From assembly GCF_031191205.1 (NCBI RefSeq), contig NZ_CP133470.1:1309501-1373500 (forward strand): 64,000 nt of DNA, written 5' to 3'. Shown here piece after piece: positions 1-55,315 of this stretch. The stretch's first letter is position 1. Every line of letters begins with the position of its first letter. The translations under genes were made by a program, and so were the position numbers. The notes below the pieces were generated by a model. That model did not search any database, was not told where the DNA came from, and saw only the letters and a program-made list of their open reading frames with translations. Origin of the DNA: Haemophilus parainfluenzae ATCC 33392 (GTDB taxonomy: Bacteria; Pseudomonadota; Gammaproteobacteria; Enterobacterales; Pasteurellaceae).

Positions 1-220
1 TTGCTGTCCCTTCTTTTGAATAGGATTTCGCCTCATCACCTTGTGTGGTGTATGTTTTACCATTCACTTCATAGCTCTGTGGCGCTTGAACGGTCGTGGT
101 AATCGACAGTGAATCTCCTTGAATACCATACATTTTTTGCGTATCGGCAAAAGCAGAAAAACTTGAGCTGCTTATCAAGGTAAAAAGTGCGGTCGTTTTT
201 AAGATGTTTTTTAATGTCAT
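1..220 (-). CDS. rlpA: Septal ring lytic transglycosylase RlpA family protein (N-terminal part only)
   Basis: Only the first 73 codons are inside the window; the gene runs off the left edge. The start is the ATG at 218-220. The N-terminus is a clear Sec signal (MTLKNILKTTALFTLI..., small residues, then AFA before an Asp), so the product is exported. There is no lipobox cysteine, unlike the E. coli lipoprotein. RlpA proteins are peptidoglycan-binding or lytic enzymes at the septum. The double-psi barrel that would confirm this lies outside the window, so the name rests on resemblance of the N-terminus to Haemophilus RlpA and on its place directly after rodA and mrdA on the same strand. An uptake signal lies inside the signal-peptide codons (185-193). 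Confidence 0.7.
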   Translation of the reverse strand, partial: MTLKNILKTTALFTLISSSSFSAFADTQKMYGIQGDSLSITTTVQAPQSYEVNGKTYTTQGDEAKSYSKEGTA

Positions 221-273
221 ACTTATTACTTTCAAGATTATCGGTGCTCTTCATAAGAAAGCCAAAAGGGAAA

Positions 274-1389
274 TTAGTTCCCTTTCATAAAGCGAGGTTT
301 GTGAGTATGAATGGACATCACTAAACCAAAGCTTGCCATGATGGCGACATATGAGGTACCGCCGTAGCTAAAGAGTGGTAAAGGCACCCCTACAACAGGC
401 AAAATGCCACTCACCATACCAATATTCACGAAGACATAAACGAAGAATATCAGTGTGGTTGCGCCCGCAAGAATACGCCCGAAAGAGGTTTCTGCATTTA
501 CCGCAATTATTAAGCCACGGATAATAATAAACAAATAAATTGCCATCAGAATAAGAAAACCGACCATTCCATGTTCTTCACTCATCACGGCAAAAATAAA
601 ATCAGTGTGTGGTTCAGGCAAAAATTCTAATTGGGATTGTGTCCCTTGCATCCATCCCTTGCCAGATATACCGCCTGAACCGATGGCAATTTTGGATTGC
701 AAAATGTGATAACCTGCCCCCAAAGGATCTTTTTCGGGGTCAAGCAAGGTTAATACACGCATGCGTTGGTAATCATGCATTAAATACATCCACATGATAG
801 GAATAAATGCCGCTAAACCAACTACTGCAGCAAGAATTAGCCACCAACTCATCCCAGCTAAGAATACCACGAATAGGCCTGATGCACTAACCAGAATTGA
901 CGTGCCTAAGTCTGGTTGAATAGCCACAAGTAAAGTTGGCACAATAATCATGGCAATAGCAATAAAGGTTTCGCTCATTTTCGGTGGTAATGGACGGTTA
1001 CCTAAATATACCGCAACCATTAATGGTACCGCGAGTTTGACAATTTCAGAAGGCTGAAAGCGAATAAACCCAAGATCTAACCAACGTTGTGCTCCTTTAC
1101 TGGTTGTTCCGATAGCATCAACCAAGATCAGCATGATAAAACCCACCAAATATAAGTAAGGGGCGAGTCGCTGATAAAATTTAGGGGGAAGTTGTGCCAT
1201 AATCATCATGACAGTAAAACCTAATATGACCTGAATGATACGATTTTGGAACATCACTTCACTGGCACCAGATGCACTATAAAGCACAAGCATGCCATAG
1301 GCTGTAATAGCGGCTAATCCAATAAATAATAAAAAATCAATATGTAAGCGTTGCCATAATCGCAAGCATAGAGGCACTTTTTCTTCCAT
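274..1389 (-). CDS. rodA: Rod-shape SEDS peptidoglycan polymerase RodA (MrdB)
   Basis: The product is a 371-residue multi-pass inner-membrane protein of the SEDS family, which polymerises glycan strands during lateral wall growth together with PBP2. About ten hydrophobic segments are visible, with the family loop around [20 protein letters not shown] and the acidic PEPHTDF stretch, then a C-terminal [13 protein letters not shown] motif. Length is normal for RodA. RodA rather than FtsW is favoured because the gene directly follows mrdA (PBP2): the mrdA stop and the rodA ATG share one base (TAATG), implying translational coupling. rlpA follows 53 bp downstream on the same strand. Confidence 0.95.
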
Positions 1390-3365
1390 TATTCATTCTC
1401 ACTTGGTTGAGATTCTAGTGCTGGCGCATCTAAATCAGTTTGGTTCGTCTTTTTCTCTTTTTCAGCATTTTCTAGACGTTCAATTTGCGGCAAGCGTTTA
1501 TTCAAGTAGAAATCCATAATTTGCCGTGCAATTGGCGCCGCATTACTTGAACCACCGCCCGCGTTTTCTAAAATAATGGTGACAACTAATTTTGGATCTT
1601 CATAAGGCGCATAAGCCGTGAACCAAGCATGGTCATGTAATTCTTTTTTCAATCCCGCGGCATTATATTTTTGGTTTTCTTTTAAGCTGAACACTTGTGC
1701 GGTACCGGATTTCCCTGCTACATGATAATTCGTGCCGATAAAGGCTTTTCGCCCTGTTCCTGCACCTGAATTCACCACATTGAACATACCGCGCTTAGCC
1801 GCATCCCAATAAGCTTGTTTCGGGTCGGTAATATCTTCATATAAAAGCGGGTCTTGATACGGTTCAATGGTGGCACCCTCAACTGATTTCATTAAATGTG
1901 GCGTATGAATTTTACCGTTATTGACTACAATAGAAGTCGCTTTTGCCACTTGTAATGGTGTCGCTGTCCAATACCCCTGCCCAATACCCACTGAGATTGT
2001 ATCGCCCTGTACCCAAGGTTTTTTATAACGTTTTTGTTTCCATTCTTTACTCGGCATATTGGCCGTGGCTTCTTCTTGAATTTCAATACCTGTCGGCATA
2101 CCAAACCCAAAACGTTTCATCCACATTGAGAAACGATCAATACCTAAATTAAAGGCGGTTTGATAGAAGAAAGTGTCCGATGATTCAGTAATGGCTTTGT
2201 TTAAATCTGTATAACCATGCCCTGTTTTTTTCCAATCTCGGAAACGTTTTGTTGAGTTTGGTAATGTCCAGTAGCCTGGGTCAAAAATCGTGGTATTAGG
2301 TGTAATCACCCCTTCAGTTAATGCCGCAACAGCAACGAATGGTTTTACCGTAGAGGCTGGTGGATACACCCCTTGTGTTGCACGACTGTAAAGTGGTCGA
2401 GTTGGATCTTCGAGTAAACGTTTGTAATCACTGGAAGAAATGCCATCGACGAATAAATTATTATCGTAGCTTGGTGTTGAAACCATCGCTAATACACTAT
2501 TATCTTTCGGATCAAGCACAACAACAGCGCCTTTTTGACCTGAAAGGAGCGACATAATGTAGCGTTGAAGAGTAAAATCGATAGTCAGATGAATACTTTT
2601 CCCCGCGGTGGCGGGTTGTTCACGTAGTTTACGAATAACTTTACCACGGTTATTAATTTCAACCTCTTCGAAACCAGTTGTACCATGGAGTTGTTCTTCG
2701 TAATAACGTTCAATACCCAGTTTCCCCATGTCCGTAGAACCGGAATAGTTAGCAAATTTTTCTTCTTTTTTTAGGCGCTCAACATCTCGGTCATTAATGC
2801 GTCCAACATAACCCAAAATATGAGTCATGGCTTCGCCATACAGGTAATTTCGTTTGAAATAAGGACGTACATCAAGGCTTGGATATTTATACTGGTTTAC
2901 TGCAAAACGGGCAATTTGTTCTTCCGTTAAGCTTGGTTTGAGTAAAATCGGCGTATAGCGTGTACCACGACGACGCTCTTTTTTGAAATGCTCAATGTCT
3001 TCATCAGTGAGTCCTACAACATAGCGCAATTCTTCAAAAGTGCGGTCTAAATTTTCTGTTTTTTCCGGCACGATATATAAACCGAAAAAAGTGAGGTTTT
3101 CTGCCAGTAACTCGCCGTAACGGTCGTAAATTAATCCGCGAGTAGGAGGAAGCGGAAGTAATTTAATACGGTTACCATTTGAGCGAGTTTGGTACATGTC
3201 GTAATTCACCACTTGGAGATGGTAAATATTAGCAAATAGCACACCACTTAGGGCTAAAATACCGATGAATGCGACCAATGTTCGACGCGCAAACAAGTTC
3301 CGCTCCGCTTTTTTATCGCGGATCGGTTCATTGGTTGGTGCAGAAAAGAATTTTTTTAAATTCAT
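1389..3365 (-). CDS. mrdA: Penicillin-binding protein 2, elongasome transpeptidase
   Basis: The product is a 658-residue class B PBP that cross-links new peptidoglycan in the cylindrical wall as the partner of RodA. There is a short cytoplasmic tail, one membrane anchor (about residues 29-49), a dimerisation/pedestal domain, then the transpeptidase domain. The catalytic serine lies in [10 protein letters not shown] (around residue 335), the second motif is SSD in [10 protein letters not shown], and the third is KSGTAQ. The C-terminus is a charged Lys/Glu-rich tail. The gene sits between rlmH (15 bp upstream) and rodA (1-base overlap), the usual rlmH-mrdA-rodA order of gamma-proteobacteria. 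It is a beta-lactam (mecillinam-type) target by family. Confidence 0.96.
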
Positions 3366-3380
3366 CGGTAATGTAATACG

Positions 3381-3848
3381 TTATTCTCTATGATAAGGGT
3401 GGTTTGTTGTCAGTGACCACGCGCGGTATAAACTTTCTGCCACGACAACTCGCACTAATGGATGGGGCAGTGTGAGTGGTGACAGTGACCAACTTTGTTC
3501 TGCTGCCGCTTTGCATTCGGGGGATAAACCTTCAGGCCCGCCAATGAGTAAGCACACATCACGACCATCATTTTTCCAACCCTCTAATTGCTCAGCAAGT
3601 TGTGGTGTTGTCCAAGGTTTGCCAGGGATATCTAATGTGACTACTTTGCCTTTTCCGCAAGCTGCGAGCATCGCTTTGCCTTCTTGCTCTAAGATACGTT
3701 TAATATCCGCATTTTTTCCACGCTTGCCTGCAGGGATTTCAATGAGTTCAAAAGGCATGTCTTTAGGAAAACGACGTTGGTATTCTTCAAATCCGGTGGT
3801 AACCCAAGCCGGCATTTTGGTGCCCACTGCAATTAATGTGATTTTCAT
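3381..3848 (-). CDS. rlmH: 23S rRNA (pseudouridine1915-N3)-methyltransferase RlmH
   Basis: The product is a 155-residue SPOUT-type methyltransferase that modifies pseudouridine 1915 in helix 69 of 23S rRNA using S-adenosylmethionine. Visible family features are the N-terminal [15 protein letters not shown], the central [12 protein letters not shown] glycine loop that forms part of the knotted SAM site, and the C-terminal [18 protein letters not shown] followed by HPYHRE. Length matches E. coli RlmH. It is preceded by rsfS on the same strand (39-bp gap carrying an uptake signal at 3881-3889) and followed by mrdA, a conserved arrangement that couples ribosome maturation to wall-growth genes. 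Confidence 0.97.
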
Positions 3849-6165: not shown

Positions 6166-7956
6166 ATGGATTACGCTCAAGAGGCCATTAATTCGCTTTT
6201 ATGGATAGCAAAAACATTAGCGATGACGGCTGTCGTGTTTAGCTTTGGTATTTTCTTATTAGTCCGTTTTACCCACTGGGGGAAACAATTTTGGCAATTT
6301 GCTGGTGGTTATCTTTCACCACGCCGAAGTATTAAACCTTTGCTATTTTTCTTGTTAATTGTAGCGATGACATTGGTCAGTGTGCGTATTAGCTTGGTGC
6401 ATTCCGAATGGTATAACAATATGTACACATCCTTGCAGGAATTTAATGAACCTGTGTTTTGGGATCAAATGGTGCTGTTTTGTGTGATAGCGACAAGTTC
6501 AGTGATTGCTGCATTGCTGAGCTATTATTTAGAGCAACGTTTTTCTATTGATTGGATCGAATGGTTGAATGGTCAGCTAGTGGATAAATGGATGAATAAT
6601 CGCGCGTACTATAAAACGCAGTATGTTTCCGCTAACTTAGATAACCCCGATCAACGTATTCAACAAGATGTGCAATCCTATGTGCGAACCACGCTCTCTT
6701 TAAGTACCGGGGTGATTGATGCTGTCACCTCTATGATTTCTTACACGATCTTATTGTGGGGATTAGCGGGACCAATGATGGTATTTGGTACTGAAATTCC
6801 ACGCATGATGGTATTCTTGGTATTTGCTTATGTGATTATCACTACCGCGATTGCATTCCGTTTAGGGCGTCCGTTAATTATGCTGAATTTCGTCAACGAA
6901 CGCTTAAACGCTAACTATCGTTATTCTTTAATTCGCATCAAAGAATATGCGGAAAGTGTGGCATTTTATGCGGGGGAGAAAGTTGAGAGCAGCCAACTTT
7001 ATAAACAATTCGGTACGGTGATCAATAACATGTGGGATATTGTTTATCGAACCTTAAAATTCTCTGGTTTTAACCTAGTAGTAAGCCAAGTTTCCGTTGT
7101 GTTCCCTTTGTTAATTCAAGTGGGGCGTTATTTTGAGAAACAAATTAAACTCGGCGATCTGATGCAAACGCTACAAGTATTTGGTAAGTTGCATTCAAAT
7201 CTTTCCTTCTTCCGTAATTCTTACGATGGTTTTGCTGGATACAAAGCCACATTGGATCGTTTAACTGGCTTTAGTTATGCGATTGATATGGCGAATCGTC
7301 AATCTACTTCGCATTTACACGAACATGAAACTGACGTGATCTTTAAGGATTTAAGCATCAGTAATCCATTTGGAAAAACCTTAATTGAGAATTTAAATTT
7401 AACACTGCCACAAGGTTCAACCCTATTAATTCAAGGTCATTCAGGCGTGGGTAAAACCACGTTATTGCGAACAGTAGCAGGGCTTTGGGTGTATTCAGAA
7501 GGGGATGTGTATTGTCCACCCCATCAGCTTTTCTTATCGCAAAAACCTTATTTACCACAAGGCAGCTTATTGACTGCGCTGGCTTATCCGAATGAAGAAA
7601 AGGCCTTTAATCGTGATGAGATGATTGAGGTATTAAAACAAGTGTCCTTAGGCCATTTACAAGATCGTTTAGATCAAGAACAAGATTGGACACGAATTCT
7701 TTCTCTCGGTGAGCAACAACGTTTGGCTTTTGCTCGTTTGTTATTACATAAACCGAAAGTAGCATTCCTGGACGAAGCCACGGCGAGTATGGATGAAGGC
7801 TTAGAAGATAATATGTATCGTCTATTAAAAGAATGTTTACCTCATACAACGGTTATTAGTGTGGGGCATCGTTCAACCTTGCAAGCTTTCCATAAGCAAC
7901 AATTGATGATTTTAGGTAATGGCGAGTGGCAATTCACTGACCGAAATCTCGTATAA
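6166..7956 (+). CDS. ABC transporter, fused permease/ATPase of the YddA/SbmA-BacA type
   Basis: The product is a 596-residue half-transporter with an N-terminal SbmA/BacA-like membrane domain (about 1-330, with the RFSIDWIEWLNGQLVDKWM element typical of that family). The ATPase domain carries Walker A GHSGVGKTTLL, the signature LSLGEQQRLAFARLL, Walker B KVAFLDEATASMD and a switch His in SVGHRS. The ATG at 6166 is chosen; an upstream TTG two codons earlier is possible. The substrate is not deducible; SbmA relatives import peptides, while YddA-type fused proteins have no settled role. The upstream region carries an uptake signal at 6136-6144. It is the gene before mreB, as in H. influenzae. Confidence 0.85.
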   Translation: MDYAQEAINSLLWIAKTLAMTAVVFSFGIFLLVRFTHWGKQFWQFAGGYLSPRRSIKPLLFFLLIVAMTLVSVRISLVHSEWYNNMYTSLQEFNEPVFWDQMVLFCVIATSSVIAALLSYYLEQRFSIDWIEWLNGQLVDKWMNNRAYYKTQYVSANLDNPDQRIQQDVQSYVRTTLSLSTGVIDAVTSMISYTILLWGLAGPMMVFGTEIPRMMVFLVFAYVIITTAIAFRLGRPLIMLNFVNERLNANYRYSLIRIKEYAESVAFYAGEKVESSQLYKQFGTVINNMWDIVYRTLKFSGFNLVVSQVSVVFPLLIQVGRYFEKQIKLGDLMQTLQVFGKLHSNLSFFRNSYDGFAGYKATLDRLTGFSYAIDMANRQSTSHLHEHETDVIFKDLSISNPFGKTLIENLNLTLPQGSTLLIQGHSGVGKTTLLRTVAGLWVYSEGDVYCPPHQLFLSQKPYLPQGSLLTALAYPNEEKAFNRDEMIEVLKQVSLGHLQDRLDQEQDWTRILSLGEQQRLAFARLLLHKPKVAFLDEATASMDEGLEDNMYRLLKECLPHTTVISVGHRSTLQAFHKQQLMILGNGEWQFTDRNLV

Positions 7957-38613: not shown

Positions 38614-39816
38614 TTAGCCTTCAGCAATTCCCATCGCACAAACGGCAGCCGAACTCCATGCCCATTGGAAATTGTAGCCACCTAACCAGCCGACAACATC
38701 TAACACTTCACCGATAAAATAGAGGCCTTTAATCTTTGTGGCTTCCATGGTTTTTGATGAAATCTCATGGGTATCAACACCACCCATCGTGACTTCAGCC
38801 GTGCGGTAGCCCTCAGTGCCATTAGGTATAAATTGCCAATTGTGGATTAAATTCTCTAGATTTTCTAACCGCACTTTACTTAAATTTGCAATCACTTCGT
38901 CTTGAATCAAGCCTTGTTCTAACCAAAGTTCGACTAATTTTTTTGGTAATAATCGACTTAATACGGTCTTTAATTGTAATTTAGGTGAAGATTGATGCAT
39001 TTCATCCAGGTGATGACGAATATCGTTATAAGGTAATAAATCTAAATGAATGCTCTCACCCGGTTGCCAATAATTTGAAATTTGCAAAATGGCAGGACCA
39101 GATAAACCGCGATGGGTGAATAACATTTGATGAGTAAAGGTTTTGTGCTGATTCGTCGCCGCCACATCTAATGAAATACCGGATAGTGCCGTGTAGAATT
39201 TTTCACTTTCTCTCCATGTGAACGGTACAAGGCTTGCACGCGGAGGAATCACATTTAATCCAAATTGTTCTGCTATTTGATAGCCAAAAGGCGAAGCGCC
39301 TAAGCCAGGCATGGAGAGTCCACCTGTGGCGATAATTAAATTCTGGCATTGCCATTCAACCGCATTTACCTTTAATTTAAACCGCACTTTAGGATTGTTT
39401 TCAACCGCTTCAACATCACTCACTTCGCTGCGTAGTTGAATGTGAACACCGTATTTGCCACATTCCGTTCCGAGCATCTTCACGATATCTTCTGCACCGT
39501 TATCACAAAATAACTGACCTAATTCTTTTTCGTGGTAAGGAATGCCATACTCAGCAACTAAAGCAATAAAATCCCAGTGTGTATAACGTGTTAAGGCCGA
39601 TTTGACAAAGTGCTTGTTTTGACTGATATAACGGTCTGGACTGATTTCCATATTGGTGAAATTACAAAATCCGCCGCCAGACATTAAAATTTTTCGGCCA
39701 ATTTTCTTACCGTTATCAAAAATTGTGGCTTGTTTGCCCAGCTTTCCTAACTGTGCGGCACAAAATAAGCCGGCAGCACCGGCTCCAATGATGATATTTT
39801 CTGAATAATGAGACAT
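38614..39816 (-). CDS. HI0933-family flavoprotein (YhiN-like NAD(P)/FAD oxidoreductase)
   Basis: The 400-residue product has an N-terminal FAD Rossmann motif, IIGAGAAGLFCAAQLGKLG, then GRKILMSGGGFCNFTN, the family hallmark. A second dinucleotide stretch is LIIATGGLSMPGLGASPFGY, and the C-terminus ends GLYFIGEVLDVVGWLGGYNFQ...AWSSA. The family is widespread (YhiN in E. coli, HI0933) but its reaction is unknown. Its stop is 110 bp from the MetE-like gene; its start lies 3 bp past the ccmH stop, so it may be cotranscribed with the cytochrome assembly genes. Confidence 0.88.
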   Translation of the reverse strand: MSHYSENIIIGAGAAGLFCAAQLGKLGKQATIFDNGKKIGRKILMSGGGFCNFTNMEISPDRYISQNKHFVKSALTRYTHWDFIALVAEYGIPYHEKELGQLFCDNGAEDIVKMLGTECGKYGVHIQLRSEVSDVEAVENNPKVRFKLKVNAVEWQCQNLIIATGGLSMPGLGASPFGYQIAEQFGLNVIPPRASLVPFTWRESEKFYTALSGISLDVAATNQHKTFTHQMLFTHRGLSGPAILQISNYWQPGESIHLDLLPYNDIRHHLDEMHQSSPKLQLKTVLSRLLPKKLVELWLEQGLIQDEVIANLSKVRLENLENLIHNWQFIPNGTEGYRTAEVTMGGVDTHEISSKTMEATKIKGLYFIGEVLDVVGWLGGYNFQWAWSSAAVCAMGIAEG

Positions 39817-45785: not shown

Positions 45786-45823
45786 TGACCGCACTTCGAC
45801 ACTTTAGTTACAAAGTGCGGTTC
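45786..45823 (-). terminator. Uptake-signal stem-loop between nrfA and nrfB
   Basis: The arms GACCGCACTT (45787-45796) and AAGTGCGGTT (45813-45822) pair with a ~16-nt loop. On the minus strand the second arm reads AAGTGCGGTCATTTTT, a terminator-like end 33 bp after the nrfA stop. It would reduce, not abolish, transcription into nrfBCD. Confidence 0.75.
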
Positions 45824-45828
45824 TTTTT

Positions 45829-47352
45829 TTATTGTTTTGTTGCGGTATCTTCAGCTAATTTGCCATTGGCTTTCGCTTCTTTTACCCATTGAGGTACAAC
45901 AGTTTCTAAGAATTCTTTTTTCGCTTTACGTTCTTTCTCGATATCAATACCCATTACTTTCCATGCTTTATCAGCTGTAGAAATATCTGGTACTTCAACC
46001 GGAGTTTTCACGCCATGTTTAGTTAAGATTGCTGCAAGTTTAGCACGCGCATCCGCTGCTTTATCTAAACCAGAACCTAATACGCGAAGCATTACATCAG
46101 GTGCGTGCATGTGACCACCGTGGCTTGCTGCAGAGTAGTCCCAACGCCATTGTGCGTGACGGATATCCATTAAAGCAGGTTCCATTTCTTCTTTAGTTGC
46201 ACCTGCATCCCATGCCGCTTTCGCTTCAAAGTGAGCACGAACAACTTGATCTTCCAAACGACCCATTACATCTTTCACTTCTTTTTTACGTGAAGCGACG
46301 ATGTCTTTAAGTTTTTCTTTGCTTTGATCGTGACAGTTTGCACAAGTGCTATCAAATGCATCGAATGGGTTTTGGATTTGGTGGTCAGTGTAAACTTTAC
46401 CGTCTTTACCTTGTACTTTAGGCATGTGACAGTCGATACAAGTTACGCCGTTTTTACCGTGCATACCTAAAGACCAAATTTCAAAGTCAGGGTGTTGCGC
46501 TTTTAACATTGGTGCTTTAGAAAGAGAGTGAGTCCAGTCACTGAAACCGATATCATCGTAGTATTTTTCGATGTCATCAACAGTTTGGCCGTTGTTCCAA
46601 GGGAAGGTTACTTGTTTTAAGTCGCCTGCGAAGTAGTATTCAACGTGGCAGTTTGCACAGATTTCAGCGCGTTTTTCAGTGCGAGCTGCTGTGTTAAAGC
46701 TTAAATTCGGTTGCTCTTTACCTTCAGCTTTCGCTTTTGCTTGAAGTGCAGTGTTTAAGTGATCCAATGCACGAAGAACGTGTGGACGAGCAATACGTAA
46801 TGCAGGTTTGCCTTCTGCAAAGTCTTTTGAAGTGGTGTCGTGACAGTCAGCACAACCGATTGAGTTTACAATTTCTGCGCCACCTTTAGCCCATTTAGCA
46901 CCAAAGTAACCATCTTCACCCCATTCCGCGATTAAACGTGGAACGTCTGGCCCTTTACAAGTCCAACACGCCATTGGTTGTGGGCCATCAGTTGCTGTTT
47001 TTGGTGCCCCAGTACGTAAAATATCACGTACGTCTTTTACCGCATAAACATGGCCACGAGGTGCGTTATATTCTTTCGCAAAGGCATAACCGCCCCATAA
47101 CACGATTAAACGTGGATCTTGTTCATCTGCATAGATGATTTTGTCGCCTTTTTCAGTCGCTTTCCACGAATTGAATTGGCTAGGATATTTCTCAGCGAAT
47201 TTTTCATTCACTGCTTCGATTTTTAAGTTAGGATTTGGTGCTTCCACAGGTTGTTCAACAGGCTTATATACCATTTCAGCCATCGCTGAATTATATACAC
47301 CTAAAGCTGCGAAAGAAGTCGCCAAAACGAGGCTTTTTCTCAATGCGTTCAC
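45829..47352 (-). CDS. nrfA: Ammonia-forming cytochrome c nitrite reductase NrfA
   Basis: The product is a 507-residue pentahaem enzyme that reduces nitrite to ammonium in the periplasm with six electrons. The catalytic haem motif is CWTCK (near residue 130), unique to NrfA; the other four are CADCH, CANCH, CIDCH and CANCH. A Sec signal ends near [11 protein letters not shown] at 47352 is chosen because GGAG lies 8 nt upstream; an in-frame GTG three codons earlier overlaps that GGAG. It is first in nrfABCD, behind an FNR-like box. Confidence 0.97.
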
Positions 47353-47499
47353 GATAATCACTCCATTAGGAAAGAATAAAAAAACAATTTAAAATGCGAA
47401 CAATTCCTATTAAGCTTTTGAATTCACTCATAAAAATGGCTCAACGCAAGCATAAGATACCAAAAAGTAGTAGTTTTTATACGGTTTTTTTTCAAAAAT

Positions 47500-47513
47500 T
47501 TGAGGTTGATCAA
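47500..47513. promoter_or_regulatory. FNR-type box upstream of nrfA
   Basis: TTGAG-GTTG-ATCAA differs from TTGAT-N4-ATCAA at one position. On the minus strand a TATAAA hexamer (47476-47481) lies about 20 bp downstream toward nrfA, roughly the spacing of an FNR-activated promoter. Anaerobic activation of nrf by FNR is established in E. coli and Haemophilus. Confidence 0.7.
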
Positions 47514-47518
47514 CATTT

Positions 47519-47554
47519 CCAAATAAAATACCTCTAAAGGGGTATTTTATTTGG
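47519..47554. repeat. 36-bp inverted repeat between nrfA and the adhesin gene
   Basis: CCAAATAAAATACC (47519-47532) and GGTATTTTATTTGG (47541-47554) are perfect 14-bp arms; two more pairs (one wobble) leave a TAAA loop. It lies 6 bp from the FNR box and 42 bp before the adhesin -35. The 47353-47698 region is otherwise AT-rich with the two divergent promoters. Function is unknown: operator, or hairpin at the 5' end of a leader. Confidence 0.85.
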
Positions 47555-47595
47555 TGTGGGGAGAATTTTTTGTTTAATTATTACCTAACGATGTC

Positions 47596-47623
47596 TTGCT
47601 CTTAAGTTTAATTACCTTATAAT
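47596..47623 (+). promoter_or_regulatory. Candidate sigma-70 promoter of the trimeric autotransporter gene
   Basis: TTGCTC (47596-47601) and TATAAT (47618-47623) are 16 bp apart, followed by about 70 bp of leader to the ATG at 47699. The ribosome site is weak (GGTGAT). No simple-sequence repeat tract for phase variation is seen in the promoter or leader. Confidence 0.6.
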
Positions 47624-47698
47624 ACGAACGTTTATTTTTTGTTGAAAATTTATACATGTATTCAATTTCCTTCTTTAACTTTATATTGGTGATTTTTT

Positions 47699-50600
47699 AT
47701 GAACAAAGTTTTTAAAATTATTTGGAATAATGTGACTCAATCTTTTGTAGTAGTTTCTGAACTCGCAAGAAATAGAGGAAAGCTCAGCTCAGAAATGAAA
47801 AAGTCAAACGTGGTAAACCTTTTTAAATTATCTATTTTTACCATGTGTATGATGGGGGGCGCTTCCCAAGTACAAGCTAAATTTGCTCAGGGAGGCATTC
47901 CTGATTCAAATGTTAGCGCTACCTCTATTGCTATAGCTGACGCTAATTCTACAGCAACTGCTGCTAACTCAATTACCATGGGCAATTCAGCTAAAAACCC
48001 TTATCAAGCGGGTATTGTGCTTGGGAACTGGGCTGGCGCAAAAGGTTCTACTTCCGGTGGTTATAATGTGATTATTGGAGGAAATGCTCAGGTTGGCACT
48101 AAAGCTCAAGCCGTGAATCAATCAATTGCAATTGGTGCTGGTGGTGGTGAGGACAATGCAAATCTCATTAATGGTGCTTGGGCAAAAGGTGACCAATCTA
48201 TTGCAATAGGGGGAAATACTCGTTCAGATGGTAACTCTTCAATTGCAATTGGTGGAGATGATCTTGATCGTGCGGGTAGTAAAAATTATACGGGAGCAGA
48301 TAAATTTATTGATTATGATAAGAATGGAAATAAAACTGGTGAATATGCTTTAACAAATAAGGCTCTCCGTGATATTTATAATAAGATGACGGGTGATACC
48401 ATGAAAAATGCGGTGTATGCTAACACCGTATCTGGAGACGCCTCAGTTGCAATTGGTGCTCAAGCTGTAGCTGATGCTGATTTATCTACTGCTTTAGGAA
48501 CTAAATCAAAAGCTAGCGCATTTGGTTCAGTAGCGCTTGGCGTAGGAGCTAAAGCGAATAAGCTCAATTCCGTTGCTATCGGTACGGCCTCTGTCACTGA
48601 CGAAGTAGGAAGAGCCTATGCGACTCGTACTATTTTAGGTGAAACTTATACCTGGGCTGGTGGATCAACCGTTGATGCCGGTGATGTCGTTTCTTTTGGT
48701 GCAAAAGGCTATGAGCGTCAGTTAATTAACGTTGCGCCAGGTGACATATCTTCAAATTCTACTGATGCAATTAATGGTTCTCAATTGTATGGAGTTCTCA
48801 GTTCATTAGAAAAAATTCGTTATTTTTCTGTGAAGTCTAGTGTAGCACAAAACCGCAATAATGATGGGGCGAGTGCAACAGATGCGATTGCAATTGGACC
48901 TAATGCAAGTTCAACAGCTGATCGTGGCATTGCTGTGGGTTTAAATTCACAAGCCAGCCAACCTAATGCTATTTCATTAGGGTGGAATGCTAAAACCTCA
49001 GCAGTAAACTCAATAGCTTTAGGTACTAATGCTAATTCTTCGGGGATAAACGCATTAGCTTTTGGTACTAACGCGATTGGTAGCAGAGACAATACTATTG
49101 CGATGGGTGGTGCAAGTAGTGCTAGTGGTGATTCCTCTATGGCATTTGGTTTAAGTTCAAATGCATCAGGCGGACATTCTATTGCAATAGGGGAACAGTC
49201 TAATGCTGCTGTAGAACATTCTGTTGCTTTAGGTTCTCATTCTCAAGCAGGAGCAAATGCATTTGATGCAACATCTTCAACTGCGACATTTAAAGATGCT
49301 GCCGGTGCGGATACAACGATTAGATTTGCGGCAAACTCATCTACGTTAAAGGGAGCTTTTTCTGTTGGTAAGACTGGAGAAGAGCGCCAAATCCATAATG
49401 TAGCAGCAGGGCGTCTTTCACCTACGTCAACGGATGCTGTAAACGGTTCTCAACTTTACACGGTACTAAACAACAGTGGTTTTAATGTATTAGAAAATAA
49501 TGCTTCTAAAGCGAGAATTAACAATAATAATGTAGTTAATTTTAAAAATGGCGCACAAACAACCGCAGTTGTAACGAAAACAGCAAATGGAACTGATGTG
49601 ACGTTTAATGTAAATACTACGACGATTTCTTCTGATGCACAAAGTAATGCGTCTACTCCAAATAGAAATGCGATTGCAAATGCTGGTGATGTTGTAGATG
49701 CAATTAATAGTGTACGTAATAAACCAATTACATTTACTGGTAATACTGGAAGTACTACGAAAAAATTAGGTGATTCACTCGCTATCAAAGGTGATGGTGC
49801 AGATATCACGAGTGCTGCAGATACAAATAATATTGTATTTAGATTAAATAAATCTAATAGTGTGGCTGCTGGCGATAATAAAGTTGTTACGGGTGATGCA
49901 GTAAATACAGCAATTAATGCGATTAACTTAAATACTGCAGGCAATTCTGGTACTGGCTCAGTGAATCTAGCTACCCAAAGTTTAAATATTACTGGTACAA
50001 ATGGTTTGCAAACAGAAGCTAAAGCAAATGGCATTGAAGTAAAAATTGATACTGCAACGAAAAATAAAATTGATAATGCCGCAAATCAAAGCCTAGATAA
50101 TATTAACCCTGATGGCAAAAATGTGATTAAAGGCTTAGTTGATATTGAAAATGGCAAAAATACGACCGCAAGTAGCCGAGATGTGAATGGCGTCAAAACC
50201 TTCAAAGTGGATGTGAATACAACCACGATTTCTGCTGGTAACGATGGACAAGTTAATACACCAGCTAACGGGGATGCTCCAGTGACTGCAACTTCTGTTG
50301 CAGATGCAATCAACAATACTTATTGGAATGTTGTTGCAAATGACAATACTAAAGAAGCAGTCAAGGCTGGCAATACTGTTAAATTTATTGATGGTAAAAA
50401 TATATCTATTTCTCAAAATGGTAAGGAATTTACTATTGCAACCAGTAATAATGTAAGTTTTGACCATGTTGGTGTTGGTCCTATTTCAATCGATAAAGAT
50501 GCAGGGGTTAATGCAGGTGATAAGAAAATCACCAATGTAGCAAATGGAACAGCTCCAAGTGATGCAGTCAATGTTTCTCAGTTAAATGCAGCTAAAACAG

Positions 50601-53600
50601 AAGTTAAGGCGGGTAAAAATACAAGTGTTACGCCAGAAAAAGGTGCAAATGGGCAAACTATTTATAAAGTAGATAGTGTAGATACCTCTGCAAATGTAAC
50701 GACAACCGATGCGTTAACTGTAGAAAATAAAGGTGCCCAAAATGTTGGGGATGCTTCTGTAACTAACTATCATCTTGATTTATCTCAAAAAACAAAAGAT
50801 GAGATTAAACAAGGTGTAGATGCAAATACAACGGTTACAACAAAAGGTTTAACATTCACTGGTGATAGCAGCAAATCAAATGTGAAAAAATTGGGCGATG
50901 AAGTTGAAATTACAGGTGATGATAATATTACGACTGAAGCGAAACCTAATGGTGTTCAAGTTAAGTTAAACAAAGTGCTTAACGTTACTAGCGTCAAAGC
51001 AGGCGATACGACTATCAATAACGATGGTTTAACTGTTAATGGTGGTCCAAGTGTAACTAAATCAGGCATTAATGCAGGCAACAAAAAAATCACTGGTGTT
51101 GAAGCAGGTACCGCTGATAAAGATGCAGTGAATGTTTCGCAATTGAATGATGTGAAAAAGGTGGCTACTAAAGGCTGGAATTTAACTGCTAATGGTTCCA
51201 ATAGTAGTAATGTTGCACCAGGTGAAACAGTTGATTTGAATAACACCGATGGCAATATTCAAATTACCAAAAATGCAACAGACGATAATGTAACATTTAA
51301 TTTAAATAAAACAATTAATGTGACCAATGTTAATGCTGCAGGTAATGTGACAGCTGGTGATACTGTTTTAAATACAGATGGTTTGACTATTACTGGTGGT
51401 CCAAGTGTAACTAAATCAGGTGTTAATGCTGGTAATAAGAAAATTAGCAATGTCGCAGATGGTGAAGTTAATGCCAATAGCAAAGATGCAGTAAACGGTA
51501 GTCAGCTATACTCATTGGGCGATACTATCAATAAGAAAATTGATGGTATGGGCTTTAATTTAACCACTAATGGTACGGAAACACCGGCGCTATCTGATGC
51601 TGATAAACGCATTGTAAGTAATGAAACATTTGCAATAAACCAAGGTAAAAATATCAAGGTAACTCAAATAGCAAATGGTTATGAAATTGCTACAGCGGAT
51701 AACATGACACTAGGAGAAAAAGCTGAGAATGGTCAACCGGGTAGTGATGGTTCATTAGCGGTTAAAGGTAAAGATGGTTCTGCAGTATCAATTAACGGAA
51801 AGGATGGTTCAATTGGTTTATCGGGTAAAGATGGTGCAAACGCACTAACTCTTAAGACGGTTGAGGGTCCGGCAGGTGTTGATGGAGAGGATGCAGATAA
51901 GAAACCGCGTTTAGATGTAAATGGTGAAAGTGTTGCTACTTTAAATGATGGCTTGAAGTTTACAGGAAATAATGAAAGTACAGTAAACAAACATAAGCTA
52001 AACACTCTAGTGAAAATCAAGGGTGAAGGTGTAAGTGAAGCTGAGTCAAACACATTTAAATCTGCAACAGGTAATATCAATGTTAAAGCAGACGGTGCAA
52101 GTACATTAGAAGTTCAGTTAGCGAAGGACTTGAAGGGTTTAAATAGTGCTGAATTTAAAGATGCTACAGGTGATGTAACCAAAATCACTCCGGCAGGTGT
52201 GACAGTTAATAAAGCGGATAACTTGAACCAGGATGGTTCAGCTAAAGATCCAAAGAAAACTGTATCAATATCTAATACTGGTGTGAATGCAGGTAGTAAC
52301 AAAGTTACTAATGTCGCAGATGGTGAAGTTAATGCCAATAGCAAAGATGCAGTAAACGGTAGTCAGCTATACTCATTGGGTGATACTATCAATAAGAAAA
52401 TTGATGGTATGGGCTTTAATTTAACCACTAATGGTACGGAAACACCGGCGCTATCTGATGCTGATAAACGCATTGTAAGTAATGAAACATTTGCAATAAA
52501 CCAAGGTAAAAATATCAAGGTAACTCAAATAGCAAATGGTTATGAAATTGCTACAGCGGATAACATGACACTAGGAGAAAAAGCTGAGAATGGTCAACCG
52601 GGTAGTGATGGTTCATTAGCGGTTAAAGGTAAAGATGGTTCTGCAGTATCAATTAACGGAAAGGATGGTTCAATTGGTTTATCGGGTAAAGATGGTGCAA
52701 ACGCACTAACTCTTAAGACGGTTGAGGGTCCGGCAGGTGTTGATGGAGAGGATGCAGATAAGAAACCGCGTTTAGATGTAAATGGTGAAAGTGTTGCTAC
52801 TTTAAATGATGGCTTGAAGTTTACAGGAAATAATGAAAGTACAGTAAACAAACATAAGCTAAACACTCTAGTGAAAATCAAGGGTGAAGGTGTAAGTGAA
52901 GCTGAGTCAAACACATTTAAATCTGCAACAGGTAATATCAATGTTAAAGCAGACGGTGCAAGTACATTAGAAGTTCAGTTAGCGAAGGACTTGAAGGGTT
53001 TAAATAGTGCTGAATTTAAAGATGCTACAGGTGATGTAACCAAAATCACTCCGGCAGGTGTGACAGTTAATAAAGCGGATAACTTGAACCAGGATGGTTC
53101 AGCTAAAGATCCAAAGAAAACTGTATCAATATCTAATACTGGTGTGAATGCAGGTAGTAACAAAGTTACTAATGTCGCAGATGGTGAAGTTAATGCCAAT
53201 AGCAAAGATGCAGTAAACGGTAGTCAGCTATACTCATTGGGCGATACTATCAATAAGAAAATTGATGGTATGGGCTTTAATTTAACCACTAATGGTACGG
53301 AAACACCGGCGCTATCTGATGCTGATAAACGCATTGTAAGTAATGAAACATTTGCAATAAACCAAGGTAAAAATATCAAGGTAACTCAAATAGCAAATGG
53401 TTATGAAATTGCTACAGCGGATAACATGACACTAGGAGAAAAAGCTGAGAATGGTCAACCGGGTAGTGATGGTTCATTAGCGGTTAAAGGTAAAGATGGT
53501 TCTGCAGTATCAATTAACGGAAAGGATGGTTCAATTGGTTTATCGGGTAAAGATGGTGCAAACGCACTAACTCTTAAGACGGTTGAGGGTCCGGCAGGTG

Positions 53601-55201
53601 TTGATGGAGAGGATGCAGATAAGAAACCGCGTTTAGATGTAAATGGTGAAAGTGTTGCTACTTTAAATGATGGCTTGAAGTTTACAGGAAATAATGAAAG
53701 TACAGTAAACAAACATAAGCTAAACACTCTAGTGAAAATCAAGGGTGAAGGTGTAAGTGAAGCTGAGTCAAACACATTTAAATCTGCAACAGGTAATATC
53801 AATGTTAAAGCAGACGGTGCAAGTACATTAGAAGTTCAGTTAGCGAAGGACTTGAAGGGTTTAAATAGTGCTGAATTTAAAGATGCTACAGGTGATGTAA
53901 CCAAAATCACTCCGGCAGGTGTGACAGTTAATAAAGCGGATAACTTGAACCAGGATGGTTCAGCTAAAGATCCAAAGAAAACTGTATCAATATCTAATAC
54001 TGGTGTGAATGCAGGTAGTAACAAAGTTACTAATGTCGCAGATGGTGAAGTTAATGCCAATAGCAAAGATGCAGTAAATGGTAGTCAACTTTATAATGCC
54101 GTTGCGACCACTAATTTAACGCCTAATGCTACAGGAAAAATTGATGTTCCAGTAGAGGGAGCAAAATTAGTGAATGCAACAACTGTCGCGAATGCAATTA
54201 ATAATTCTGGTTGGAATGTTACTGTGAATAAAGATGGCGGCGAAGCTGAGGGTGAACAAGTTCAAAAAGTAAGCCCAGGTAATACTGTGACTTATATCGC
54301 AGGACAAAATATCAAAATTAAGCAAGCTGGTATGAATTTTACCATTTCAACCACAAAAGATTTGAAAGCTGAAAATGTCACCGCGAAAACAGTTAATACC
54401 ACCACTATCAACCTTGGCGAAGGTGATAACTCAACGCCAATTACAGTAGTAAGTGGTAAAGATGCAGCACCAAATCTTGAGGGTAAAACACCAAATCGTA
54501 TGAACTTTGGTGGTGAAACTATCGCAACATTAAGCGATGGCTTAAAATTTGGCGCAAACGTAGGCGATGTTTACGGTGCGAAATTAAATAGCCAAATCAA
54601 TGTGAAAGGCGCAGATAGCAATACAAACTGGAGTGAGTTTGATGGTGGCGATAATGTGATGACAAACATTGATAAGAGTGGTAATGTTCGTGTAGCTATT
54701 AAGAAAAACCTTAAAGTGGAAAGCGTAACAGCGAATAAATTCACCGCGGGTGATACTGTGATTGATAGCAATGGTGTAACCATTAAAAACGGTCCAAGCA
54801 TGACTAAAAATGGTATTGATGCAGGTAATAAACAAATTACCAATGTTGCACCAGGACGTATTGCGGCAGACAGTACTGATGCGGTAAACGGTAGCCAATT
54901 ACACGAAGTAAAAGCTGACGTGAATAACAAGATCAATCACTTAAATGGTCAAGTGAACAAGTTAGGTAAACGTGTAAATGCAGGTACAGCAAGCGCGTTA
55001 GCGGCGTCTCAATTACCACAAGCGTACATTCCTGGTAAGAGCATGGTTTCTGTGGCAGCGGGTAATTACCAAGGTCAAAATGCTGTGGCATTAGGTATGT
55101 CACGTATTTCAGATAATGGTAAGATCATTATTCGTTTAGCAGGTACGAGCGATACTCAAGGTAAAGTGGGTGTAGCAGTTGGTGCAGGTTACCACTGGTA
55201 A
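47699..55201 (+). CDS. Trimeric autotransporter adhesin (Hia/Hsf/YadA-like), 2500 residues
   Basis: This is a surface adhesin that trimerises through a C-terminal beta-barrel. Order: extended signal region ESPR (MNKVFKIIWNNVTQSFVVV...), signal core ending near SQVQAKFA (about residue 61), and YadA-like head repeats of the SIAIG/A type (about 80-320 and 395-530). Multiple DAVNGSQLY or DAVNVSQL necks and a long Asn/Thr/Lys/Gly-rich stalk follow, including three 287-residue repeats (about 1251-2111) with GKDGS-type glycine-rich runs. The anchor (about 2410-2500) contains SALAASQLPQAYIPGKSMVS and ends in VGAGYHW. The last residue is aromatic, as outer-membrane proteins require. The gene has no uptake signal over 7.5 kb. 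The ligand is unknown. Confidence 0.95.
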   Translation: MNKVFKIIWNNVTQSFVVVSELARNRGKLSSEMKKSNVVNLFKLSIFTMCMMGGASQVQAKFAQGGIPDSNVSATSIAIADANSTATAANSITMGNSAKNPYQAGIVLGNWAGAKGSTSGGYNVIIGGNAQVGTKAQAVNQSIAIGAGGGEDNANLINGAWAKGDQSIAIGGNTRSDGNSSIAIGGDDLDRAGSKNYTGADKFIDYDKNGNKTGEYALTNKALRDIYNKMTGDTMKNAVYANTVSGDASVAIGAQAVADADLSTALGTKSKASAFGSVALGVGAKANKLNSVAIGTASVTDEVGRAYATRTILGETYTWAGGSTVDAGDVVSFGAKGYERQLINVAPGDISSNSTDAINGSQLYGVLSSLEKIRYFSVKSSVAQNRNNDGASATDAIAIGPNASSTADRGIAVGLNSQASQPNAISLGWNAKTSAVNSIALGTNANSSGINALAFGTNAIGSRDNTIAMGGASSASGDSSMAFGLSSNASGGHSIAIGEQSNAAVEHSVALGSHSQAGANAFDATSSTATFKDAAGADTTIRFAANSSTLKGAFSVGKTGEERQIHNVAAGRLSPTSTDAVNGSQLYTVLNNSGFNVLENNASKARINNNNVVNFKNGAQTTAVVTKTANGTDVTFNVNTTTISSDAQSNASTPNRNAIANAGDVVDAINSVRNKPITFTGNTGSTTKKLGDSLAIKGDGADITSAADTNNIVFRLNKSNSVAAGDNKVVTGDAVNTAINAINLNTAGNSGTGSVNLATQSLNITGTNGLQTEAKANGIEVKIDTATKNKIDNAANQSLDNINPDGKNVIKGLVDIENGKNTTASSRDVNGVKTFKVDVNTTTISAGNDGQVNTPANGDAPVTATSVADAINNTYWNVVANDNTKEAVKAGNTVKFIDGKNISISQNGKEFTIATSNNVSFDHVGVGPISIDKDAGVNAGDKKITNVANGTAPSDAVNVSQLNAAKTEVKAGKNTSVTPEKGANGQTIYKVDSVDTSANVTTTDALTVENKGAQNVGDASVTNYHLDLSQKTKDEIKQGVDANTTVTTKGLTFTGDSSKSNVKKLGDEVEITGDDNITTEAKPNGVQVKLNKVLNVTSVKAGDTTINNDGLTVNGGPSVTKSGINAGNKKITGVEAGTADKDAVNVSQLNDVKKVATKGWNLTANGSNSSNVAPGETVDLNNTDGNIQITKNATDDNVTFNLNKTINVTNVNAAGNVTAGDTVLNTDGLTITGGPSVTKSGVNAGNKKISNVADGEVNANSKDAVNGSQLYSLGDTINKKIDGMGFNLTTNGTETPALSDADKRIVSNETFAINQGKNIKVTQIANGYEIATADNMTLGEKAENGQPGSDGSLAVKGKDGSAVSINGKDGSIGLSGKDGANALTLKTVEGPAGVDGEDADKKPRLDVNGESVATLNDGLKFTGNNESTVNKHKLNTLVKIKGEGVSEAESNTFKSATGNINVKADGASTLEVQLAKDLKGLNSAEFKDATGDVTKITPAGVTVNKADNLNQDGSAKDPKKTVSISNTGVNAGSNKVTNVADGEVNANSKDAVNGSQLYSLGDTINKKIDGMGFNLTTNGTETPALSDADKRIVSNETFAINQGKNIKVTQIANGYEIATADNMTLGEKAENGQPGSDGSLAVKGKDGSAVSINGKDGSIGLSGKDGANALTLKTVEGPAGVDGEDADKKPRLDVNGESVATLNDGLKFTGNNESTVNKHKLNTLVKIKGEGVSEAESNTFKSATGNINVKADGASTLEVQLAKDLKGLNSAEFKDATGDVTKITPAGVTVNKADNLNQDGSAKDPKKTVSISNTGVNAGSNKVTNVADGEVNANSKDAVNGSQLYSLGDTINKKIDGMGFNLTTNGTETPALSDADKRIVSNETFAINQGKNIKVTQIANGYEIATADNMTLGEKAENGQPGSDGSLAVKGKDGSAVSINGKDGSIGLSGKDGANALTLKTVEGPAGVDGEDADKKPRLDVNGESVATLNDGLKFTGNNESTVNKHKLNTLVKIKGEGVSEAESNTFKSATGNINVKADGASTLEVQLAKDLKGLNSAEFKDATGDVTKITPAGVTVNKADNLNQDGSAKDPKKTVSISNTGVNAGSNKVTNVADGEVNANSKDAVNGSQLYNAVATTNLTPNATGKIDVPVEGAKLVNATTVANAINNSGWNVTVNKDGGEAEGEQVQKVSPGNTVTYIAGQNIKIKQAGMNFTISTTKDLKAENVTAKTVNTTTINLGEGDNSTPITVVSGKDAAPNLEGKTPNRMNFGGETIATLSDGLKFGANVGDVYGAKLNSQINVKGADSNTNWSEFDGGDNVMTNIDKSGNVRVAIKKNLKVESVTANKFTAGDTVIDSNGVTIKNGPSMTKNGIDAGNKQITNVAPGRIAADSTDAVNGSQLHEVKADVNNKINHLNGQVNKLGKRVNAGTASALAASQLPQAYIPGKSMVSVAAGNYQGQNAVALGMSRISDNGKIIIRLAGTSDTQGKVGVAVGAGYHW
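51449..54078 (+). repeat. Three 861-bp in-frame tandem repeats plus a 47-bp partial copy
   Basis: Units 51449-52309, 52310-53170 and 53171-54031 match in encoded protein and, where I compared them, in DNA; the one difference I found is T at 52381 in unit 2 where units 1 and 3 have C. A fourth copy stops after 54078. Each unit is 287 codons, begins in a neck (NVADGEVNANSKDAVNGSQL), and contains the KDG-rich segment. Copy number change would keep the frame and alter stalk length. Confidence 0.95.
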
Positions 55202-55217
55202 TTCATCGTAAATAAAC

Positions 55218-55246
55218 AAAAGGCATGGGAAACTATGCCTTTTTTA
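55218..55246 (+). terminator. Intrinsic terminator of the adhesin gene
   Basis: AAAAGGCAT (55218-55226) and ATGCCTTTT (55235-55243) form a 9-bp stem with an 8-nt loop and trailing T residues, 17 bp after the stop. Confidence 0.85.
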
Positions 55247-55315
55247 TTGCCAAAAGTGCGGTCGATTTTCGATCTATTTTTCGTATAATAGAAAGAACTT
55301 AATTCGGAGAAGAAT

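Follow-up and report, generated by a model that had tools for sequence, protein, structure and literature searches.

Long-repeat stalks are already known from several trimeric autotransporter adhesins (TAAs). In BadA of Bartonella henselae, neck/stalk modules are described as multiplied, lost and reshuffled between strains, with fibre length broadly tracking gene length; BadA differs from the locus presented here in belonging to another genus, in having many more modules and in its neighbouring pseudogene copies, which are described as a ‘toolbox’ (PMC8859334). The stalk of AtaA from Acinetobacter sp. Tol 5 is reported to hold extremely conserved long repeats of 58-243 residues, but these form a mosaic of six groups, unlike the one 287-residue unit in direct tandem found here (PMC3498257). 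BatA of the Brucellaceae is described with a TrpRing-GIN-Neck module perfectly repeated six times in tandem, the number differing between species, although module composition and host are different (PMC7688925). Within Haemophilus, the adhesive activity of Cha from the cryptic genospecies is reported to be modulated by variation of identical tandem repeats (Sheets and St Geme 2011, cited in PMC9704523 and PMC3498257), which are 28 residues long compared with 287 here, and for Hia/Hsf reshuffling has been proposed as the origin of TAA variety (PMC2597055). Isoforms of EmaA from Aggregatibacter actinomycetemcomitans are described as differing by a 279-aa deletion directly after a neck (PMC10892112). 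Finally, the Periscope Proteins share with the present locus long, near-identical tandem repeats in a stalk whose length is proposed to vary by recombination (PMC8201768, PMC9704523), but the class is defined as monomeric and single-chain, and its review expressly leaves TAAs out on the ground that they have no tandem repeat domains (PMC9704523).

Here we describe an array of three 861-bp units in an adhesin gene of Haemophilus parainfluenzae, which adds a clean and recent case to these already known long-repeat TAA stalks but is no new type, and which probably arose by a recent expansion of one stalk module to three through unequal homologous crossing-over within the gene. Among the matches listed in our literature search, no title dealt with this adhesin. 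The window, i.e. the whole stretch of 64,000 nt that was analysed, comprises bases 1309501-1373500 of genome G000, assembled as a single contig of 2,141,689 bp. The adhesin ORF is located between nrfA-type cytochrome genes on one side and a DUF554 gene on the other. The features of the gene and its array are as follows:

47699-55201, forward strand: TAA gene, 2500 aa, with signal peptide, head repeats, necks/stalk and membrane anchor
51449-52309, forward strand: unit 1, 861 bp, 287 codons
52310-53170, forward strand: unit 2, with T at 52381 in place of the C of units 1 and 3 (synonymous)
53171-54031, forward strand: unit 3, identical to unit 1
54032-54078, forward strand: 47-bp stretch common to the upstream and downstream necks, presumed crossover stretch

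The preliminary description had spoken of a giant adhesin, which agrees with the TAA domains of this 2500-aa ORF: the extended signal peptide region ESPR (PF13018) at aa 1-38, YadA_head (PF05658) and nine stretches of YadA_stalk (PF05662) all scored above their Pfam cut-offs, and the C-terminus (aa 2440-2500) matched YadA_anchor (PF03895) with 69 bits against a cut-off of 22.7. By domain content the product is thus a TAA, predicted to trimerise. The best-scoring NCBIfam model was that of EmaA (NF033477), but its 826 bits are far under the cut-off of 3000, which places the adhesin outside this family. Pribosyltran_N reached 30 bits (cut-off 25), with the best stretch at aa 1526-1565 within the array; we took this as chance, since no single stretch was significant and the match was absent with a single unit as query. 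The Collagen family remained below its cut-off (26.7 versus 27.2 bits).

The surroundings of the gene gave some further observations. An intergenic inverted repeat (47519-47554; 17 nt, 94 % complementary, 2-nt gap) lies upstream of the adhesin; its right arm is changed in the related genome G006, and the alignments of the other relatives stop inside the repeat. The 9-mer AAGTGCGGT, which we take to be the Haemophilus uptake signal, occurs 44 times in the window, counting both strands, yet is absent from the 9.4 kb containing the adhesin gene (45813-55254), where about 6.5 occurrences would be expected at window density. The only tandem array of score at least 50 in the window, as a candidate simple-sequence phase-variation tract, was located in a different gene (39355-39408); the Tandem Repeats Finder run had a longest period of 500 and was blind to the 861-bp array. 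In H. influenzae biogroup aegyptius, many TAAs are reported to carry simple-sequence tracts (PMC3309571).

The array itself (51449-54078) consists of three in-frame 861-bp units plus 47 bp. At lag 861, identity is continuous from 51449 to 53217 (1767 of 1769 bases) and broken only at 51520 and 52381, which represent one and the same base of the middle copy; units 1 and 2 as well as units 2 and 3 therefore differ at one position, units 1 and 3 at none. This single difference is a C/T exchange at a third codon position and synonymous (dN 0, dS 0.005), leaving the 287-residue protein of all three units identical. The units are codon-aligned (51449-47699 = 3750; 861 = 3 x 287). In 50-base blocks beyond the array and its edges, the lag match drops to between 9 and 23 of 50, i.e. 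the identity of the array is far beyond chance. Throughout the G000 genome, the unit protein occurs at 100 % three times, always in this array. Three in-frame 287-codon units with one base difference, as the preliminary description had put it, were thus recovered, and so was the divergence of related neck motifs elsewhere: in motif family D4, the copy at 50993 is 75 % like the one at 51347 and 68 % like the downstream one at 54740. The 47 bp of its ‘fourth start’ do repeat the start of the unit, but they are a stretch shared by two different necks and not a truncated copy.

An AlphaFold2 monomer model of the unit based on 22 sequences was too poor for a fold search (mean pLDDT 64, pTM 0.30). 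Compared by sequence with solved structures, the unit gave one match in one search (E 0.004) and ten in another (E up to 0.1), of which nine are TAA parts or TAA constructs and one is a collagen.

How the array may have originated becomes apparent from the necks bordering its units:

51408-51510, forward strand: neck N1, upstream-type, family D3, neck core at aa 1263
52269-52371, forward strand: neck N2, hybrid, left part N4-like, right part N1-like
53130-53232, forward strand: neck N3, hybrid, left part N4-like, right part N1-like
53991-54093, forward strand: neck N4, downstream-type, neck core at aa 2124

Between N1 and N4, 71 sites are different in the 120 bases preceding the 47-bp stretch, and a further 98 in the 200 bases that begin with it. 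Most of these sites lie in unrelated flanks; inside the 103-nt neck there are 11 left-hand and 3 right-hand sites. The nearest neck differences bounding the 47 bp are at 51448 and 51496 (unit-1 coordinates). At the left sites, both N2 and N3 are N4-like throughout (71 of 71 each). At the right sites, N3 is N1-like at all 98 and N2 at 97, its one exception being the private base of unit 2 at 52381, which is outside the neck itself. Exactly this hybrid pattern, together with a total identity of exactly 2 x 861 + 47 bp, is what a crossover of N4 with N1 within the 47-bp stretch would produce.

We infer the following course of events from the sequence. An ancestral stalk, built as a chain of modules joined by necks, would have held a single 287-residue module flanked by one neck of the upstream type and one of the downstream type. 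Unequal homologous crossing-over inside the 47 bp common to both necks would then have duplicated the module in frame, and the two identical units would have allowed a second unequal exchange, leading to three copies. One synonymous base change in the middle copy would have followed, as it is most simply dated after the triplication. Three copies would make for a longer fibre from head to anchor, and any further change in copy number would shift its length in steps of 287 residues. By loose analogy with BadA, each unit might add, very roughly, 15-24 nm of fibre, assuming about 0.05-0.08 nm per residue as computed from the BadA lengths given in PMC8859334.

For comparison, a set of 11 genomes of the genus including G000 was used, the collections holding one genome per species. 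The two stretches flanking the gene in the window (6.3-8.4 kb) share 93.8-96.7 % DNA identity with H. parainfluenzae C2004000280 (L009) and with G006, as befits H. parainfluenzae or a sister species. A TAA gene is present at this locus in eight of the 11 genomes, with ATG frames of 1274, 1484, 1411, 1755, 2211, 1554, 1580 and 2500 aa and differing content, so that the variable stalk length anticipated in the preliminary description holds between relatives. Orthology was based on the neighbouring DUF554 gene in six of the eight; in G002 and G010, where this gene was not found, the locus was assigned from the upstream sequence and the C-terminal part held in common.

The unit at 80 % aa identity or more was found in two of the 11 genomes, i.e. 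with three copies in G000, the only genome with more than one, and with one copy in G004. Unit numbers at the locus are thus three in G000, one in G004 and none in G006, these genomes belonging to different species clusters and the latter two being drafts. In G004, the syntenic gene harbours its single unit (86 % nt and 89 % aa identity) between necks of both types. Aligned with the window, the G006 gene shows 95.6 % identity for gene positions 1-3812 and 97.0 % for 6303-7503, the breaks falling in N1 and N4; between these parts no match to the unit was found, and G006 instead holds a different module between the necks, in two in-frame tandem copies (lag 1017). G001 shows an in-frame tandem module duplication at the same locus (lag 750). 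An alignment to the window ends exactly at gene position 3812 in five of the seven other orthologs (G002, G003, G006, G009 and G010) and at 3816 in G001, whereas G004, with its unit, is the exception. Synonymous divergence between the window and G004 is 0.673 for the unit, more than in all seven flanking genes compared (0.174-0.485), the following module (0.454) and the C-terminal part (0.297); this points, without proof, to a separate and laterally mixed history of the module.

Repeats of this kind are not confined to one gene. From 53 anchor-domain matches in the 11 genomes, we took 41 loci, i.e. that of the window and 40 others, and omitted 12 with frames of 365-721 aa. At least seven of the 41 longest frames contained direct repeats of at least 300 bp at 90 % identity or more; at L175, the longest frame lay on the opposite strand, so that the TAA was probably not the frame tested. 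In a wider set of loci with unit relatives, such repeats were found in 10 of 60 TAA frames, some of these genes overlapping the 41. These rates are lower bounds, since arrays of this type would be missing from draft assemblies, which make up many of the genomes. Among the repeats listed, a whole unit at 99.9 % identity or three such copies were found in the window alone.

Several other TAAs were of note in their own right. In G000, the next match of the unit protein (61 % over residues 107-252) belongs to a second giant TAA, L145 (2956 aa, G000:C1:2114500-2126500), which carries diverged partial copies of the 287-aa unit as well as a 1.4-kb internal repeat (85 %, lag 1443). At L161 (G001:C1:856000-864500), a TAA contains a pair of copies (lag 1023) sharing 950 identical bases, so that the genus offers a second case of recent duplication or conversion. 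The TAAs at L153 (G007) and L162 (G010) hold long arrays of spaced 126-bp (42-codon) repeats, about 86-89 % alike among the matches listed. Relatives of the unit occur in Veillonella, Fusobacterium and Pasteurellaceae (L010, L012, L014 and L023 at 43-54 % aa identity), and their spread across phyla might reflect an exchange of stalk modules.

The duplicates in sibling TAAs bear on the main alternative, i.e. that the units are old repeats held identical by gene conversion (concerted evolution) and not recently duplicated. In these duplicates, a long identical core lies between diverged ends. The core comprises 950 bases (lag 1023) at another TAA locus of G001, 408 (lag 681) at another TAA locus of G005, and 577 inside the 1057-bp pair at the G006 locus described above. 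All four sibling duplicates examined were mosaic (identical cores of 577, 950, 212 and 408 bases), and this patchiness in four of four pairs ruled out the idea of older sibling duplicates merely drifting apart with no homogenisation; in this family of genes, conversion or repeated exchange is therefore at work, or has been. The identity in the window, in contrast, is not patchy but spans every whole unit and stops at the neck differences, and the only other genome of the genus with the unit, the draft G004, has one copy. We therefore consider the maintenance of old repeats by conversion unlikely. Of the two possibilities raised in the preliminary description, very recent duplication is retained, while ongoing conversion fits the patchy identity of the siblings, the array being explained by clean crossovers. 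Conversion may still have played a part at the necks, as the two necks of G004 differ within the 47-bp stretch, so that the identity of N1 and N4 in the window may stem from a later conversion.

It also has to be considered that the true copy number is not three. The count comes from a single assembly, and in the draft G004 identical copies could have collapsed to one. Mis-assembly of such repeats is documented: for badA of strain Marseille, long reads are reported to have corrected the length from 9,249 to 11,922 bp (PMC8859334). The single 2.14 Mb contig and the private base of the middle copy, which looks as if the copies had been resolved, are no proof but speak against an artefact, which we regard as improbable.

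The least plausible alternative concerns the necks, whose DNA could be a recombination site dedicated to the switching of stalk cassettes, as the window and G006 differ by whole modules with the same two necks as borders. From 98 neck cores in 36 frames, 96 were compared after dropping N2 and N3 as copies, and neck codons were slightly more alike than codon usage predicts, by 2 to 4 points: the same codon was observed at 0.518 versus 0.495 expected within genes, 0.526 versus 0.491 between orthologs and 0.502 versus 0.487 against other loci, the pairs not being independent. Breakpoints clustered at necks only moderately, with 35 of 98 at -30 to +12 aa from a neck core compared with 19.1 +/- 3.9 for random positions (maximum 33 in 5000) and 63 away from necks; moreover, the breakpoints lack independence, and alignments tend to stop at conserved necks in any event. 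With neck codons this near to the codon-usage expectation, a dedicated site is very improbable, and the homology of neck DNA looks incidental.

The array bears on the published claim that TAAs are without tandem repeat domains and hence outside the Periscope class (PMC9704523), a claim already weakened by AtaA (PMC3498257) and BatA (PMC7688925) as described. The search rule for Periscope Proteins, i.e. tandem repeats of more than 50 residues at 80 % identity or more (PMC8201768), covers the 287 residues found here as identical protein in three copies, whereas by domain content the adhesin is a TAA and thus presumably trimeric, not monomeric. Since the review excludes TAAs, it is by definition no Periscope Protein, yet it may work like one. 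It is tempting, if speculative, to picture this locus in H. parainfluenzae-like species as continually gaining, losing and swapping modules between necks, with an active array that would alter fibre length within a population in a Periscope-like manner. Hybrid necks around a shared 47-bp stretch would in any case represent a sequence-level footprint of the multiplication of TAA stalk modules. H. parainfluenzae is a common oral and airway commensal, and its adhesin locus is simple enough for copy-number change to be measured directly.
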